From NCBI RefSeq assembly GCF_003852405.1, contig NZ_QAJM01000013.1, positions 45,217-109,216 on the forward strand: a stretch of DNA of 64,000 bases. Reading direction: 5' to 3'. Source of the DNA: Pseudomonas sp. KBW05. Its GTDB lineage: Bacteria > Pseudomonadota > Gammaproteobacteria > Pseudomonadales > Pseudomonadaceae. The translations under genes and the position numbers were made by a program. Of this stretch, positions 890-48,787 are shown piece after piece; the stretch's first letter is position 1, and each line of letters starts with the position of its first letter. The notes below the pieces were generated by a model that did no database searches, was not told the DNA's origin, and saw only the letters and a program-made list of their open reading frames with translations.

Positions 890-1195
890 TTACACAACAA
901 CCCCATCCTCCCCAGCAACCCCATTCGGCAACATCCCATTCGCCAAATCATCCACCACCGCCTTCGCCATCTCCCCCAAATAATGCGCAGCCCAGGCATA
1001 GCGGTCGGCGCTTTTGTCCATGGCCGCGTCCAGTGCCAGCAGTTTGGAGCAGTGCAACAACTCGGAGGCATGCTCCAGGGCTTCGCGGATGGGGACGCCG
1101 GCATTGATACGGAATAGGTGGTGATGATTGGGCGGTGTACCGCAGGTGGAGAAGGTGATGATGCCGAGGGTTTTGTTGAGGGGTGGGTTGATCAT
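890..1195 (-). CDS. DUF3077 family protein
   Basis: The 101-residue protein carries the DUF3077 hallmarks common in Pseudomonas: FRINAGVPIREALEHASELL, then LDAAMDKSADRYAWAAHYLG and EMAKAVVDDL. The function is unknown. The ATG at 1195 is chosen because GGAGGT lies 5 bases upstream and the start overlaps the stop of a 24-codon upstream frame (ATGA), which implies translational coupling. It lies downstream of a structured leader (1286-1482) resembling the P4 phage CI-RNA region, so expression is probably controlled by transcription termination. Confidence 0.8.
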   Translation of the reverse strand: MINPPLNKTLGIITFSTCGTPPNHHHLFRINAGVPIREALEHASELLHCSKLLALDAAMDKSADRYAWAAHYLGEMAKAVVDDLANGMLPNGVAGEDGVVV

Positions 1196-1266
1196 TGGGC
1201 ACCTCCGCACGGGGTGGGGGTGTGGATTGCAGTGTTGCGTGGGTATCGCCTATCAGAAACGGTCAT
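1192..1266 (-). CDS. 24-codon upstream ORF coupled to the DUF3077 gene
   Basis: ATG at 1266 is preceded by AGGAG at 8-base spacing, and the frame (MTVSDRRYPRNTAIHT...) ends with TGA overlapping the ATG of the DUF3077 gene. The good ribosome site and the 4-base overlap suggest that it is translated and couples translation of the next gene. The peptide is basic and Thr/Pro-rich, with no recognised relative. It may be a leader peptide with no function of its own. Confidence 0.5.
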   Translation of the reverse strand: MTVSDRRYPRNTAIHTPTPCGGAQ

Positions 1267-1277
1267 TGCTTTAGCTC

Positions 1278-1523
1278 CTAGTGTCGAGAAGCTGCCACAT
1301 TCGTTATCAGGCGAAAGGGTGGCAGCTGTGCGCAGGCTGATAAACCGGGACAATAGGAACCCGGCAGGCCCGAAGGCCTCCCGCGCACAGCCGCCATAAC
1401 ACGGATGTGCGGACGCAAAAAAAGCGTCGGCATGGTGCTGGAGACGCTTGAGCGCCTATTGTTCCACGGGTTATCAGGCCCGGTCACTGAATTTGCGGTG
1501 ACGGCAAAAAAATAGCTCAGCAA
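1278..1523 (-). CDS. Ash-family-like open frame over the structured leader (possibly not translated)
   Basis: An 81-codon frame starts at TTG 1523 and ends at TAG 1278, next to the ribosome site of the upstream ORF. Its middle (PHIRVMAAVRGRPSGLPGS) resembles the Ash family first named from phage P4. In P4-like elements this coding signature coincides with conserved regulatory RNA. Here too the segment encoding GRPSGLPGS is exactly the stable hairpin part of the leader. No ATG start is available. I think the conservation reflects RNA rather than protein, and keep the frame at low confidence. Confidence 0.3.
   Translation of the reverse strand: MLSYFFAVTANSVTGPDNPWNNRRSSVSSTMPTLFLRPHIRVMAAVRGRPSGLPGSYCPGLSACAQLPPFRLITNVAASRH
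1303..1482 (-). ncRNA. P4 CI-like regulatory RNA region (seqA, three-way junction with seqB, seqC)
   Basis: Read on the minus strand, a 14-bp stem (TGGCGGCTGTGCGC with GCGCACAGCTGCCA, one G-U pair) at 1320-1396 encloses two hairpins: GGCC-TTCG-GGCC and CCGGG-N10-CCCGG. The wobble pair would be an A-C mismatch on the plus strand, so the minus strand is the folding strand. CCTATTGT and TTATCAG inside the junction (1337-1357) are complementary to ACAATAGG and CTGATAA at 1455-1478. CTGATAA recurs downstream at 1304-1310. This seqA/seqB/seqC layout matches the P4 immunity leader, in which a short CI RNA causes early termination by pairing. The assignment is by structure, not by alignment. Confidence 0.55.
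1417..1449 (-). terminator. Candidate attenuator terminator inside the leader
   Basis: On the minus strand AAGCGTC and GACGCTT form a 7-bp stem with a 14-base loop, followed by a run of T. It lies between the seqA-like and seqB-like segments and well upstream of the DUF3077 gene, so it would act inside the leader rather than at a gene end. Confidence 0.6.
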
Positions 1524-1659
1524 GCCACATTCCGGAACCCACAGACTGTGCCTAAAGATTTCACACCAAAGAGAGTGAGAGTATTGGTCGCGTACTCCCT
1601 CAGACGTTTGTTAACGACTCAGGTAATAGGAACTCCCTAGCTTCATATTTGCTTACACT

Positions 1660-2085: not shown

Positions 2086-2661
2086 CTACAACATCACCTC
2101 ATAAGGCCCCAACACCTTACTAGTCTGCACCAACCCCTGCCGCATCAACATCTCAAGATACCCCTCCGCGTTTACCGACGGCCGCATCATCGCCCGCCTC
2201 TGCTTCTGCGCCGCCGCCAATACCGCCGCCTGATCCAAATCCCAAAGGTCCGAGATAAAGTCATCCGGATGCATCGGCTCTATGTCATAAGCCGCCAGCA
2301 CATGCGCCGGAAAGTCTTTCAGATTAAAGGTCACGATGACCTCCGCCTTACTCCGAATCGCTGCCGCCAGGACGTGACGATCATCAGGATCCGGTAAGTC
2401 CAGGCTAGAACACAGCCCCTCATACCCCATTACCAACCCATCCGGTATGGCCTTGTCCATCAGCGCAGAAGTATTATCCACTTGTTCCGGGGTCAAGTCC
2501 GGATGATTCTTGAGTACGTTGCGCTTCCACTCCTCATGAATCTGACGGGTCCATCGCGCCCGATACAGGCCAGACAACCCCAGCCACATCAATAAATCCC
2601 GCAGCGCCGCCGGGTAAAGCACACAAGCGTCGTATACAGCCGTGAATGGCGAACACCTCAT
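2086..2661 (-). CDS. PIN-domain toxin (VapC-like ribonuclease)
   Basis: A 191-residue PIN-domain protein. The first acidic residue is Asp11 in AVYDACVLYP. The central acidic motif is LPDPDDRHVLAAAIRSKAEV, followed by IVTFNLKDFP, which is typical of PIN toxins that cut RNA with a metal-bound acidic cluster. The C-terminal extension (residues about 130-191) is usual for this longer subgroup. Its start overlaps the last codons of the upstream HTH gene by 4 bases (ATGA), the standard toxin-antitoxin layout with the antitoxin first. RNase activity is inferred from family membership. Confidence 0.85.
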   Translation of the reverse strand: MRCSPFTAVYDACVLYPAALRDLLMWLGLSGLYRARWTRQIHEEWKRNVLKNHPDLTPEQVDNTSALMDKAIPDGLVMGYEGLCSSLDLPDPDDRHVLAAAIRSKAEVIVTFNLKDFPAHVLAAYDIEPMHPDDFISDLWDLDQAAVLAAAQKQRRAMMRPSVNAEGYLEMLMRQGLVQTSKVLGPYEVML

Positions 2662-3128
2662 AAGTCATACCCCATTCCCAGCTCCTGAGCCTGCCGCACC
2701 AACGCCTCCATCGCCTCCTGACTTTGCGCATCACGCTGCTGTTTAAACGCCATCAAATCCGAAAAACGAATGCGCCGATGCCGACCGGTTTTTGTGAAAG
2801 GAATAGCGCCCTCTTCCAGCATCTTGACCAAATGCGGACGTGAAACGTTGAGCAAGTCGGCGGCTTCCTGGGAGGTCAATTCAGCGTGCACGGGCACGAC
2901 TTTGACGGCATTGCCGATGGCGAGCTCTCCGAGGATGTCGACCAATAAACGCAACGCCGAAGTAGGGAGTACGAGGGTGTGGGGCTTGTCTTCTTTGTCG
3001 AAGATGTCGATGCGCTGAGTTTCAAATTTTGTCGACAGCAATGAGGCGAGTTCACGCTGGCCTTGCACGGCGGCTTCAACTTCCTTTTCCAGCGGAGGGA
3101 TGGTTTTTGGGAGGGGGTTGGTGATCAT
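2658..3128 (-). CDS. Excisionase-type helix-turn-helix antitoxin
   Basis: A 156-residue protein. The N-terminal 90 residues are helical and probably bind the toxin or dimerise. Residues about 100-145 form a MerR/excisionase-like DNA-binding domain (LTSQEAADLLNVSRPHLVKM, then IPFTKTGRHRRIRFSDLMAF). It is the first gene of a two-gene operon with the PIN toxin. Such antitoxins usually repress their own promoter. An inverted repeat CGAAATA/TATTTCG lies 46-92 bases upstream of the start. Confidence 0.82.
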   Translation of the reverse strand: MITNPLPKTIPPLEKEVEAAVQGQRELASLLSTKFETQRIDIFDKEDKPHTLVLPTSALRLLVDILGELAIGNAVKVVPVHAELTSQEAADLLNVSRPHLVKMLEEGAIPFTKTGRHRRIRFSDLMAFKQQRDAQSQEAMEALVRQAQELGMGYDL

Positions 3129-3228: not shown

Positions 3229-3474
3229 CTACTCCCCCGCGACTCCGCGCGCCCTCTTTAACCATCTGTAATACCAGACCGTCCCGCCCACTACCGCTCC
3301 CACAACCACCACCCCATTCCCCACCAACCAAAGCCCAAAATTCCGACTCTGCTCCGCATCACTCTCATAAAACGGCCCAAAATACGTAGACACCGCCACC
3401 ACTACCCCGTTGAACACCCCAAGCGCCACCGCAACCACCAACACCACACACCCAATCCCCTTAACCGCCGTCAT
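3229..3474 (-). CDS. Small two-helix membrane protein coupled to tae4
   Basis: An 81-residue protein with two hydrophobic helices (about residues 5-28 and 47-67), an acidic connecting loop (FYESDAEQSRN) and a basic C-terminal tail (YYRWLKRARG). ATG 3474 is chosen because GGAGG lies 5 bases upstream and the start overlaps the tae4 stop as ATGA. Translational coupling to an amidase effector suggests a protective role. However, it does not look like the known Tai4 immunity proteins, which are exported soluble periplasmic proteins. The immunity role is inferred from position alone. Confidence 0.6.
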   Translation of the reverse strand: MTAVKGIGCVVLVVAVALGVFNGVVVAVSTYFGPFYESDAEQSRNFGLWLVGNGVVVVGAVVGGTVWYYRWLKRARGVAGE

Positions 3475-3983
3475 AAAACCCTCCAAAACCAAATCTCCCG
3501 GGAATCGTGATAGCTCGAAAACGTCCCCTCAATCGAAAACCCCATCTGAATACGCGGGTAGCTCAGCCAATCCGTCAACCGTCGCCCATTCCACAGATCG
3601 ATATGGTCACCACTACGATTGCCAAACGTCTCTTTCCCTCGCCTCCAGAAGTCTTTGAAGAAGATAACGCCCTGCTGCCCGGCTAGCACTTCCTCAAAGT
3701 CTTCGGGCTTCAACTTAATAACCGCCCTTAAACCGGGAATATTAGCGCGGCTTAATGCCCTGGCCATTTCCTCAGCTGCCAGTACGTGCCCCTCACTCTT
3801 GGGGTGCTGCCAACAATAGCGCACGTCGACTAAGCGGCTCAGATCGGCGCCGGATCTGCGCAGTGCTACGCCTAAATTGATCGCGCATTGATCGCTGAAA
3901 TTCTTTGCGCCGTTGCTTCTGCACGGGGCTGCGTCGCCGAAAATTTCGGGGTGGTTTTTCCATAGGGTATTGAAGGTCAGCAT
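3471..3983 (-). CDS. tae4: Type VI secretion amidase effector, Tae4 family
   Basis: A 170-residue protein of the Tae4 family, which cleaves the peptide stems of peptidoglycan (DL-endopeptidase type, gamma-D-Glu/mDAP bond) after type VI delivery to the periplasm of rival cells. The catalytic Cys is Cys33 in NFSDQCAINLG, and the His is His127 in SGDHIDLWNG, with Asp129 nearby. There is no signal peptide, as expected of a type VI cargo. Length is normal. No VgrG, Hcp or PAAR gene is visible, so it is an orphan effector that must use an apparatus encoded elsewhere. Confidence 0.88.
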   Translation of the reverse strand: MLTFNTLWKNHPEIFGDAAPCRSNGAKNFSDQCAINLGVALRRSGADLSRLVDVRYCWQHPKSEGHVLAAEEMARALSRANIPGLRAVIKLKPEDFEEVLAGQQGVIFFKDFWRRGKETFGNRSGDHIDLWNGRRLTDWLSYPRIQMGFSIEGTFSSYHDSREIWFWRVL

Positions 3984-4265
3984 TCAGTATTTCCATCGCG
4001 TGTTTTTCACGCGACCGTAGCAAACGCCCTGTCGCCAAAGAGGGGCGCAGACAGAAAACAGAGCGGTCCTACTCGTGTGCAGGTTTTGCCTGAAGGCCAA
4101 AGCGCACAGGCCTTCCACATGCAGATGAGAGAACTCAAATACGTACTTTCAACGTCGCGACAAGCCAGCTGACCTTTCCCACAAAAACCATCGAACAACA
4201 CTGATTCCAGGCGCTTGCTTGCCCCTCGTAGCCTCACTCCCCCCACACAAGGAAGTGAGTCGGCC

Positions 4266-5429
4266 ATGTCAGAACGCGCCTACCCCATCACCGAAGAAGA
4301 ACAGCTCAAACGCCGCATCCTGACCCCGCAGCCGAAGCGAATGCCCTATTCGCCGCCCATCGACTTGCTCGCCCCTCTCCCACCCACAACCCCTGCCCCC
4401 ACCAAACCTCCCGGCTGCGTATTCCTCAAGCCCTGCCAACTGCCCGACGGGCTTATTCACTACAACGATCCAACCGGTTACGTGCCACTAGAGCTGATCG
4501 AGGAGTACGGCCATTTCAGCCTGTTGGGCGGCCGTGAGGTGGATGACCAAGGCACGGTTGCCTTGAGCAAAATCAGCGGCAGTGCACTGCCTGTCGGCTT
4601 GGGATCGTTGGCATTGCGGGCGGTGGTGGTGGAGTCGGCGGCTGTTGCGGCTGGCACGGTAGCGAGTGGGTTGCTAGCGGGATTGGTCGGGCTGGCGTGG
4701 CCAGCAGCGTTGGGCGATAGCGCGCTCTACACCGACGAGCAATTGCGCTCAATGCAACGGGCGCGTTCGCAGATGCGGTTGCATATCGAGCAGTTGGAGG
4801 ACGGCACGCTCAAGGGCTATGGGTTTTACACCGGCCGCAATGCCGACTGGCAGATGATCGAGGTGGTGCAGTTCCAAAGCCGTGGTGATCGATTTGTGGC
4901 CAATTTGGGCGAGGGAGTAGAGCTGATCTGGACGCCTGCGGTTGATCCGGGGGACACCTTGAGAATCCCGGCGTTGGAGGCGGCGCCACAAGCACCGGTG
5001 ATCTGGATTTATCCGCCGACGCAGAAGGCAGCGCAGATTTTGGTGAACCCGGTTTATCCGCCGGAGTATCGGGATTTTATTCTGGTGTTCCCGGTGGAGT
5101 CGGGGGTTGGGCCGTTGTATGTGGTTGTTAACACACCTCGCAAAGGGCTCAGAAACCCAGACCACGATTACTTCCCGGCCCCCCAAATCGAAGACATAAC
5201 GGGCTTCCCAGGATTGATTCCCCAAAGGCCTGTGACACCAAGAAAAGGTGGGGGAGGTTTACGTGAACGCTGGATAGACGCAAAGGGAAGGAAAATATTT
5301 GAGTGGGATGCCAAGAAAGGAGAGTTGGAAGTCTATCGAAACAGTGATTTGGAACACCTTGGCGCATTTGATCCATACACCGCAGAGCGTCGAGGTCCTG
5401 CAAAACCGGAACGCCGAATTTACAGATAA
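4266..5429 (+). CDS. S-type pyocin/colicin E3-like 16S rRNA nuclease toxin
   Basis: A 387-residue toxin. The N-terminus is Pro-rich (residues 1-60), followed by a hydrophobic Ala/Val/Gly helix region (about 105-150). A pyocin S domain follows (to about 290, with WIYPPTQKAAQILVNPVYPP). The C-terminal 90 residues align by eye with the colicin E3 cytotoxic domain (NPDHDYFPAPQIED; GRKIFEWDAKKGELEVY; HLGAFDP). Equivalents of E3 Asp510, Glu517 and Arg545 are Asp348, Glu355 and Arg383, but the His513 position is Lys351. The receptor-binding region of a full bacteriocin is missing, so type VI or other contact delivery is possible. ATG 4266 is used, with AAGGA upstream. Confidence 0.85.
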   Translation: MSERAYPITEEEQLKRRILTPQPKRMPYSPPIDLLAPLPPTTPAPTKPPGCVFLKPCQLPDGLIHYNDPTGYVPLELIEEYGHFSLLGGREVDDQGTVALSKISGSALPVGLGSLALRAVVVESAAVAAGTVASGLLAGLVGLAWPAALGDSALYTDEQLRSMQRARSQMRLHIEQLEDGTLKGYGFYTGRNADWQMIEVVQFQSRGDRFVANLGEGVELIWTPAVDPGDTLRIPALEAAPQAPVIWIYPPTQKAAQILVNPVYPPEYRDFILVFPVESGVGPLYVVVNTPRKGLRNPDHDYFPAPQIEDITGFPGLIPQRPVTPRKGGGGLRERWIDAKGRKIFEWDAKKGELEVYRNSDLEHLGAFDPYTAERRGPAKPERRIYR

Positions 5430-5443
5430 AGAGGAAGCAAAAA

Positions 5444-5728
5444 ATGGTCATGAAAATAAGATTGCGATGGTACGAAAAGCACAGCAATGACTTGAAGGCG
5501 GATGAGTACTCAGCAGACATCGACGATGGCGATAGTTTTTTTGAGGCGCTGGATTTGAGCGAGGAAACCGCGATCTATGCCGACGTGTTCAACGTTCTTC
5601 CAAGCTGGATAACAACGCTCCAACCACACTTCAAACACGTGATCGACCCAACCCTCTTCGACTACCAAATCTCTTTCCGCTACCAAGGCGCCTGGCCACC
5701 ACCACCCAAGCAACCCAAGACCCCATGA
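5444..5728 (+). CDS. Colicin E3/cloacin-type immunity protein
   Basis: A 94-residue acidic protein resembling Im3: MKIRLRWYEKHSNDLKADEY matches the E3 immunity N-terminus, and LPSWITTLQPHFKHVIDPTL and QISFRYQGAW match its later strands. These proteins bind the E3 nuclease domain tightly and block ribosome cleavage. The gene starts 14 bases after the toxin stop with a GGA-containing ribosome site. An Im3-like partner argues that the upstream toxin is, or recently was, active despite its Lys351. Confidence 0.85.
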   Translation: MVMKIRLRWYEKHSNDLKADEYSADIDDGDSFFEALDLSEETAIYADVFNVLPSWITTLQPHFKHVIDPTLFDYQISFRYQGAWPPPPKQPKTP

Positions 5729-47728: not shown

Positions 47729-48640
47729 TCAAAGGCTGTACTTCTGCAAGTTGGCCATCATTTCCTTCAGGGCTTCGATGTTGTCCTTGGGGTGGGCGGC
47801 GCCTTCGAAGTCGCAGATCTGCTGCCAATGCGCGGCCACGTCGTCGGGCGAGAAGCCGGCTTCCGGGTCAAACCCCACGCCGAGGCTGCGCTCCCAGCGG
47901 GTCTTGCCGATCCAGCCGCCGCCCACTTCGAACAGGCCGGCGGTGTCCTCGCACGCCGCGCTGCCCAGGTACACCACCAGCGGGCTGACCAGCTCCGGCT
48001 TGAGGCGCTCGAACACTTGCGGCGGGATCAGGCCTTCGGTCATGCGCGTGCCACCAGTAGGGGCGATGGCGTTGACCAGGATGTTGTTCTTGCGCCCTTC
48101 CAGCGCCAGGGTGCGGGTCAAGCCATACAACCCGAGCTTGGCCATGCCGTAGTTGGACTGACCGAAGTTGCCGTAGATGCCGGAGGTGGAAGCCGTAAAG
48201 ATCACCCGGCCGTAGCCTTGCTCGCGCATGTGCGGCCAGGCGGCGCGGGTGACTTTGTAGGCACCTTCGACATGCACCCGGTAAACCAGGTCCCAGTCGC
48301 TGTCGTCCATTTTGTGGAAGGTCTTGTCGCGCAGAATCCCGGCATTGTTGACCACCACGTCGATGCGACCGAACACTTCCAGCGCGTGCTGCACAATCTT
48401 GTCACCGTCGGTGACGGAGTCATGGTTGGCTTCGGCAATACCGCCAGCGGCGCGGATTTCAGCGACCACACGGTCAGCGGCCGAGGCATTGGCGCCTTCG
48501 CCCTGGGTCGAGCCGCCCAAGTCATTGACCAACACCTTGGCCCCGTGCCGGGCGAACAGCAGCGCATGGGCCCGGCCCAACCCGCCGCCGGCACCGGTGA
48601 CGATCACGACCTTATCCTGGAACTGCACTGACTCACTCAT
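47729..48640 (-). CDS. Short-chain dehydrogenase (MFE-2-like 3-hydroxyacyl-CoA dehydrogenase type)
   Basis: A 303-residue SDR: NAD-binding TGAGGGLGRAHALLFA, NNAG motif in VVVNNAGILRD, catalytic Ser/Tyr/Lys in TASTSGIYGNFGQSNYGMAK. The long NDLGGSTQGEG loop and C-terminal extension resemble the dehydrogenase domain of multifunctional enzyme 2 of fatty-acid oxidation. ATG 48640 has CGGAG 6 bases upstream. It lies next to an alpha/beta hydrolase and class II aldolase; a shared catabolic pathway is possible. Confidence 0.82.
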   Translation of the reverse strand: MSESVQFQDKVVIVTGAGGGLGRAHALLFARHGAKVLVNDLGGSTQGEGANASAADRVVAEIRAAGGIAEANHDSVTDGDKIVQHALEVFGRIDVVVNNAGILRDKTFHKMDDSDWDLVYRVHVEGAYKVTRAAWPHMREQGYGRVIFTASTSGIYGNFGQSNYGMAKLGLYGLTRTLALEGRKNNILVNAIAPTGGTRMTEGLIPPQVFERLKPELVSPLVVYLGSAACEDTAGLFEVGGGWIGKTRWERSLGVGFDPEAGFSPDDVAAHWQQICDFEGAAHPKDNIEALKEMMANLQKYSL

Positions 48641-48787
48641 ACCGAACTCCGCTGGCGACAATGGGAATGGGTTGAGTGTCAGGCACGGGGCCTTGGGTCA
48701 CAATAAAGTCAGCCAGGGCTGAATGGTGCGCGATAAGGCTGGGGGATGATGGCCAAGGGGCCGGCGCTGCTCTCACTGTGGAACAGG

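Follow-up and report, generated by a model that had tools for sequence, protein, structure and literature searches.

The closest described counterparts of the system reported here are the C4 antisense RNA of phage P1, the CI RNA of satellite P4 and the IsrK RNA of Salmonella Gifsy-1; C4 RNAs are listed in Proteobacteria and phages by Weinberg and others (the portion of PMC2864571 bearing on C4). In the P1 record AF234172, the sites a1 (48255-48261) and b1 (48269-48276), both marked putative, are followed by C4 itself (48343-48419), a2 (48423-48429), b2 (48452-48459), icd (48470-48691) and ant1, which starts at 48688. We follow the P1 usage, as given in the relevant part of PMC5320573, in calling the C4 segment directed at the ribosome site loop b′ and its other address segment linker a′. 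The CI RNA controls the replication genes of P4 via premature termination, and in Gifsy-1 the IsrK RNA, which resembles a first target site, opens orf45 in trans, with orf45 in turn being coupled to anrP by an AUGA overlap (both as recounted in the pertinent passages of PMC4825925).

We analyzed a stretch of 64,000 nucleotides from Pseudomonas sp. KBW05 (hereafter, the window), in which a preliminary description, made from the letters alone, had proposed that a leader akin to that of P4 CI precedes a gene for a DUF3077 protein. All the pieces it listed were recovered in place on the minus strand, to which the leader coordinates below refer. Reading 5′ to 3′, the leader begins with a promoter-like TTCCGG-17-TATTTT with a weak -35 (1509..1537), although a strict promoter scan returned none. 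Among the C4 copies surveyed below, TTGnnn-N15-18-TAnnnT is found 5′ of site 1 in 67 of 79 (2.4 expected), and the window leader does not strictly satisfy this pattern; this survey, like those of terminators and loops, covered the 79 of 84 copies with a usable site 1 and sufficient distance from an end. Next come a 5′ hairpin, GTCACCGCAAATTCAGTGAC (1483..1502), lying inside a match to the c4-a1b1 model (1463-1515) that scores 43.0, under the gathering threshold of 46.7, and the seqA-like segment CCTGATAACCCGTGGAACAATAGG (1455-1478), confirmed by a sequence check. The latter holds site a1, CTGATAA (1471..1477), complementary to linker a′, and site b1, GGAACAATAGG (1455..1465), mostly complementary to loop b′. 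It is followed by an intrinsic-terminator-like hairpin with a run of seven Ts, AAGCGTC...GACGCTTTTTTT (1417..1449), which has GACGC as its perfect arm and was missed by one terminator scan whose loop limit was 8. The C4 RNA, a three-way junction (1315..1401; 1320-1396 in the preliminary description) with a UUCG loop on one arm, carries loop b′, CCTATTGTCC (1348..1357), and linker a′, TTTATCAG (1337..1344). Directly 3′ of it stands site a2, again CTGATAA (1304..1310), and then segment x2, GTGGCAGCT (1290..1298), the complement of the 3′ strand of the C4 stem, AGCTGCCAC (1319-1327), and site b2, GACACTAGGAGC (1274..1285), which overlies the Shine-Dalgarno of a 24-codon relay ORF (1192..1266). 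The end of the relay ORF, GGAGGTGCCCAATGA, places its stop over the start (ATGA) of the 101-codon DUF3077 gene (890..1195; PF11275, 8.8e-33, with the frame taken from 1210).

The window RNA is a C4 antisense RNA and a member of the known Rfam family RF01695, against which positions 1315-1401 score 86.9 bits over all 87 positions (gathering 45). The covariation that the preliminary description had suggested looking for in the three-way junction is present: in an alignment of 88 matches (87 sources and 85 distinct rows, including four rows later dropped), 98.8% of the cells pair, 19 of the 27 pairs show two-sided changes and none of 500 shuffles scores as high, and within the DUF3077 loci alone two-sided changes are seen in 7 of the 27 pairs. 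Both alignments were fitted to the structure model, and slid controls drop to 23-54% paired. Judged by these substitutions, the C4 fold is under selection. For the comparisons below, two hits of locus L082 (one palindromic place) and the duplicates L063:2944 and L077:58 were removed from the 88 rows to give a set of 84 copies, from which one further identical C4 was dropped for a set of 83; L074, L075 and L085 were left out of one C4 locus sample because L098 covers them.

The linker of a copy is matched to the flanks of that same copy. In all 29 DUF3077 loci (8 linkers), linker a′ finds a perfect complement of 6 nt or more both in the a1 and in the a2 of its own locus; in the broader set (36 linkers), both own sites hold such a complement in 79 of the 84 copies, the window being included in both counts. 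Crosswise comparison of loci with different linkers gives a match in 10-15% of cases at a1 and 5-10% at a2. The window linker has 7-nt complements in both flanks, with shuffle frequencies of 0.018 upstream and 0.004 downstream. In a further set, unused when the address rule was framed, both linker matches occur in 67 of 82; of the 15 misses, 13 are second, weaker C4 hits in loci that also hold a stronger hit, and the remaining two are L218 and P4, the first site of the latter having fallen outside the searched range. One later locus sample comprised 45 of the 57 viral-contig DUF6124 loci (the remainder being near-identical or short), three of the five viral-contig DUF3077 loci, the 18 order loci L140-L157 and six phage-record loci. 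By this sequence criterion, the linker and both target sites change together and are matched at three places; loci of other records that keep a neighboring bPH gene likewise bear differing addresses, such as CTGATAA, CTGGAAA and TGAGAA, each matched at three places. A second, weaker C4 stands upstream in L186, L190, L192, L200, L202, L205, L208, L210, L211 and L216; the linkers of these second copies (e.g., GTCCCATTACC or ACTCCATTCCC) have no matching sites of their own.

The loop provides another contact, centered on the Shine-Dalgarno. In the window, its pairing energy with the Shine-Dalgarno zone is -16.3 kcal/mol, a value equaled or bettered by 2 of 3000 shuffles, and its pairing with the upstream site b1 alone is within chance (196 of 3000 shuffles as good). 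Over 83 copies, the pairing of the loop with the Shine-Dalgarno zone of the same copy averages -14.2 versus -9.6 kcal/mol over all pairings (z -21); the own zone is the best partner in 30 of these and among the top five in 51, and in 62 there is an overlap between the paired stretch and a Shine-Dalgarno-like motif. For the own upstream region, the corresponding values are -12.5 versus -10.4 kcal/mol (z -10). An all-against-all pairing of the 13 copies from the window's own genome gives a weaker result than these larger sets, with the own site ranking first in 11 of 13 cases upstream and in 8 of 13 downstream, and with the window loop finding its best partner elsewhere than in the window's own Shine-Dalgarno zone. 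Six orthologues have altered their loop; in these, the loop pairs with its own target at -9.8, versus -13.8 in the other 20, and their targets pair better (-11.1) with the loops of those 20 (means computed without L130, L131 and L133). By these energies, the six maintain the loop contact less strictly. As for diversity, 8 linker cores occur among 11 own-genome copies examined and 25 among 41 copies of the genome G005, with the loops differing in all 11 of the former and in 40 of the 41 latter. Thus, as linkers are common to several copies and loops are nearly all distinct, it is linker and loop together that distinguish the copies, and a three-place address with such near-unique combinations would let many similar RNAs coexist. 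One own-genome copy (L012 4721-4807, contig C15) bears the linker GTCTGTCAACC, identical to that of the phage P1 C4.

A mutually exclusive fold, in which 1290-1298 pairs with 1319-1327, had also been anticipated and recurs widely: in 75 of 83 copies, the pairing of x2 with the stem reaches -9 kcal/mol or better, and x2 favors the 3′ strand of its own C4 stem over those of others (z -5 over the 83). The end of x2 may in addition cover the Shine-Dalgarno, at -6 kcal/mol or better in 62 of 79 copies (z -3.9; four of the 83 copies left out), and the predicted fold of the window leader places the Shine-Dalgarno inside an x2-type hairpin. C4 alone is more stable than the alternative hairpin in 83 of 83 copies. 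Since x2 complements the C4 stem and can also cover the Shine-Dalgarno, the folding of C4, the opening of its stem and the closing of the Shine-Dalgarno may exclude one another.

Over 25 DUF3077 loci (a profile drawn up without L116, L130, L131 and L133), identity to the window is 92.4% for C4, 97.6% for the relay end, 86.6% for site 1, and 70.1% for the body of the relay ORF, and it falls to 40.4% far upstream. At the three codon positions, divergence is 0.106, 0.063 and 0.300 for DUF3077, which by this measure is a real, constrained protein, and 0.262, 0.326 and 0.308 for the relay ORF, which by the same measure is not. The ATGA stop/start overlap at the relay ORF was established for 27 of 29 loci, the two others being L116 and L133; in L130 and L131 another small gene, judged by position, stands ahead of DUF3077. 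A search by name gave 35 DUF3077 loci, all from Pseudomonas, the nearest being 94% identical. A search of solved structures returned no match, and an NCBIfam search gave two single members at E 0.062.

Building on the fold, the matching sites, the Shine-Dalgarno overlap, the overlapping start and stop and the selection on DUF3077, all established at the level of sequence, we consider it quite probable that a phage- or satellite-derived antisense cassette of the C4/CI type, now resident, controls DUF3077. We infer that one transcript would run from site 1 (a1, b1) through the terminator-like hairpin, C4 and site 2 (a2, b2) into the genes, and that C4 would be excised from this leader transcript as a short stable RNA, by RNase P if it follows the C4 family. 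Acting in trans, its linker a′ would pair with a2 and its loop b′ with b2, at the relay ORF's Shine-Dalgarno; with the relay untranslated, DUF3077 would also fall silent through the ATGA coupling. Site 1 would be a second, competing C4 target, which, if released as a short RNA ending at the terminator, could sequester C4 and so turn the gene on, in a manner analogous to IsrK and orf45. That the best-supported contact lies on the Shine-Dalgarno fits a translational block of the P1 type. The weak points of this proposal include the window promoter, the small share of copies (18 of 79) with perfect terminator arms, site b1, which in the window locus is within chance, the weaker own loop pairing of the six orthologues, the ranking among the 13 own-genome copies and the 7 of 35 DUF3077 loci of other records without a clear C4 (L127 is a remnant at 25.1 bits, and the other six have none at E 1). 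An action of the P4 type, wherein the pairing of C4 with sites 1 and 2 of the nascent RNA would mainly cause premature termination rather than block translation, is a tenable if somewhat doubtful alternative: the family and element order are common with P4, two close phage leaders sit in small P4-like elements, and the terminator-like hairpin of the window has counterparts with perfect arms between site 1 and C4 in 18 of 79 copies (0.1 expected), but the other 61 are without a perfect-arm terminator, on a scan that would miss imperfect ones, and the strongest contact falls on the Shine-Dalgarno.

The covariance-model search across Pseudomonas that had been suggested for this leader found matches throughout much of the genus. 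Of 40 genomes (the window's own included), 36 have a C4 match and 35 one above the cut-off, with up to 42 copies per genome and a median of 13, counts that rest on the limited number of candidates scored; the own genome holds 13 copies above the cut-off. Under the stricter filters of a wider draw from the order, any C4 was found in 15 of 115 genomes (own included), with 1 to 6 copies per genome outside the genus. Twelve of the 13 own-genome copies lie 5′ of a DUF6124 or DUF3077 gene, and copy C26:82152 precedes a diverged one. In G005, 31 of the 42 copies are followed on the same strand, after 87-235 bases, by a DUF6124 or DUF3077 gene, and the remaining 11 comprise six with a diverged small protein, which by eye we take to be of the same kind, three with a Bro-N protein and two degenerate ones. 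In the reverse direction, C4 is upstream of 31 of 38 DUF6124/DUF3077 matches in G005; five of the remaining places, those looked at (L093-L097), and the own-genome DUF6124 gene L021 have no C4 at E 1. Over the 40 genomes, the DUF6124 and C4 counts go together (Spearman 0.85; 661 C4 and 463 DUF6124 matches), with DUF6124 without C4 in none and C4 without DUF6124 in four. C4 far exceeds DUF6124 in G009 (38 to 2), G025 (28 to 3) and G006 (41 to 15), and hence other cargo must be common there; a first look at the best-scoring copies of several genomes found the gene after C4 to be often a phage-type relay of about 52 codons. Among 274 genomes sampled from the class, DUF3077 itself turned up in the own genome alone, and 28 of its 35 loci in other records have a C4. 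Two further arrangements were seen: in L083, from about 1720 onward on the plus strand, the product of a C4 cassette starts with MIKVTPNPPE like DUF6124 and then continues as a Bro-N domain, and in G005 (3628473-3630617) three C4-DUF6124 cassettes stand in tandem at a spacing of about 850 bp.

Two other readings were weighed. One is that of a cassette resembling a type I toxin-antitoxin system, in which C4 would silence a putatively harmful small protein (DUF3077 or DUF6124); its attractions are the small cargo, the copies in tandem, the different loop of nearly every copy and the precedent of P1 Icd, which occupies the same position and is recorded as a cell division inhibitor. We nevertheless hold it to be unlikely, given that the gene directly blocked here is a 24-codon relay without protein constraint and that a PADLOC search with 36 members found no match. 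The other, which we put forward as a distinctly improbable conjecture, is that the C4 repertoire (13 here, up to 42 elsewhere) forms an RNA-coded immunity and sensing array, wherein each switch would keep a small cargo of its own silent, and a phage or satellite arriving with a matching address in its leader would be silenced by the resident C4 or would titrate it and thereby release the cargo; were this true, DUF3077 and DUF6124 would be antirepressor-like or abortive effectors.

The characterization of DUF3077 in the preliminary description as a non-phage gene appears to hold for its residence, the same bPH gene lying near it in 16 of the 35 loci of other records (some of them incomplete), but not for its kinship: DUF3077 has relatives in PHROG phage families, of unknown function, and five in viral contigs, three of them with C4. 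Two of the best leader matches among phages come from small elements that encode an integrase, AlpA or an excisionase, and a primase, namely phiAH14b (75% over 239 bases) and vB_Pae_U10; a third matching phage record, Phipami28, is 57 kb. Phage-type copies present C4, then a relay of about 52 codons, with a stop/start overlap in most, and then chains of small genes including DUF3077-like ones. A C4 match accompanies 56 of the 57 DUF6124 relatives in viral contigs, its end being at most 150 bases from the start of the DUF6124 match in 48 and about 530-550 bases before it in 8; the exception, L175, has just 9 bases of upstream sequence. The exact site-1 pattern of the window found no match in viral contigs, and the window DUF3077 gave none by tblastn in the phage collection, in which a DUF6124 protein hit one record. 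The satellite genes for integrase, alpA and primase were not seen among 10 window ORFs scanned.

Several neighborhoods deserve record in their own right. In L137 and L047, the C4-DUF6124 pair adjoins the prophage repressor gene prtR, in L166 a DUF6124 cassette lies amid phage head genes, and five viral contigs carry two outward-pointing cassettes about 17-18 kb apart (L182/L188, L176/L196, L205/L215, L214/L200 and L216/L217). The idea of a PrtR antirepressor, prompted by phage DVM-2008, was rejected: prtR near a C4 cassette was otherwise seen in L047 alone among the loci examined first and in 0 of 62 viral-contig loci, and is thus too rare for the idea to be general. Elsewhere, the window codes for an S-type pyocin-like bacteriocin with a Cytotoxic domain (4215-5429, plus strand; Pyocin_S 5.2e-28, Cytotoxic 1.1e-23; L022:11432-12643), whose immunity gene may be the small ORF at 5444-5728, for a Tae4-type T6SS amidase effector (3471-3983, minus strand; PF14113, 5.8e-21) and for toxin-antitoxin-like HTH_17 and PIN_3 proteins whose genes overlap by 4 nt (2086-3128, minus strand).

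Taken together, the phage and satellite relatives, the bPH neighbor and the presence of C4 in 28 of 35 loci lead us to read the cassette as an old capture that is now resident. That it is instead a decayed prophage leftover without present function is very unlikely; phage relatives do exist and some copies are degenerate (L090, L091), but C4 and the relay end keep the high identities given above while far upstream it falls to 40%, DUF3077 is under codon constraint, the address triplets stay matched while changing, and the same neighbor gene recurs. An Ash-like protein read through 1278-1523, with the RNA fold being incidental, is hardly credible and was rejected: an 81-codon TTG frame is open in the window, a CDS is annotated across C4 in phage records, and within C4 the second codon position diverges least (0.095, 0.021, 0.112), which can be explained by the fold, but the equivalent frame is open in just 12 of 83 copies, the stretch between site 1 and C4 has no codon bias (0.228, 0.233, 0.228), a Pfam scan of the frame gave no match, and the C4 fold shows compensatory changes.

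The resident antisense cassette that we favor can now be set beside the known systems. With c4-icd-ant1 of P1 it shares the order a1, b1, C4, a2 right after C4 and b2 before the start, the 4-nt ORF overlap and the 7-nt matches of the linker to its own a1 and a2; P1 differs in that its next gene is the antirepressor ant1 rather than DUF3077 and in spacings that are off by a few bases. An antirepressor as the next gene was not found in the window, and Bro-N cargo follows 3 of the 42 copies in G005. With satellite P4 (X51522), it shares the first site, the terminator-like hairpin, the CI-type RNA and the second site on the ribosome site, and the likeness to P4 CI drawn at the outset is borne out by the fit of the CI region to the same Rfam C4 family at 74.9 bits (P1 C4, 68.8 bits; P4 isrK, 60.8) with the same element order; P4 differs in controlling its replication genes through premature termination, a role for which the terminator-like hairpin is here a candidate. 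Thus, one and the same device is met in two settings in P1 and P4, and in a third in the window. The isrK-orf45-anrP system, as far as the pertinent passages of PMC4825925 describe it, is comparable in its short site-1-like RNA and in a relay ORF that has an AUGA overlap and is kept at the nucleotide rather than the amino acid level; it differs in its cargo, AnrP, and the upstream part of the window leader matches the isrK model below gathering (42.0 against 50). The Group 1 sRNAs of Acinetobacter baumannii offer a parallel in number, with 21 C4-like RNAs bearing a variable specificity loop in one genome; linked targets of their own and DUF3077/DUF6124 cargo are not described in the relevant part of PMC5320573. 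In the open-licence literature, we found no description of a link between DUF3077 or DUF6124 and C4, no mention of DUF6124 and none of "C4 antisense" together with "Pseudomonas fluorescens", and DUF3077 is mentioned in connection with a P. putida mutation. Single Pseudomonas genomes hold as many as 42 copies, among the candidates scored, of a regulator of the P1/P4 type, and two protein families of unknown function, DUF3077 and DUF6124, are a main cargo of C4 switches; the function of this cargo and a possible action of resident C4 RNAs on incoming elements are now directly testable. The system is of the same kind as C4 and CI, and what is new is its scale, its cargo and its addresses.
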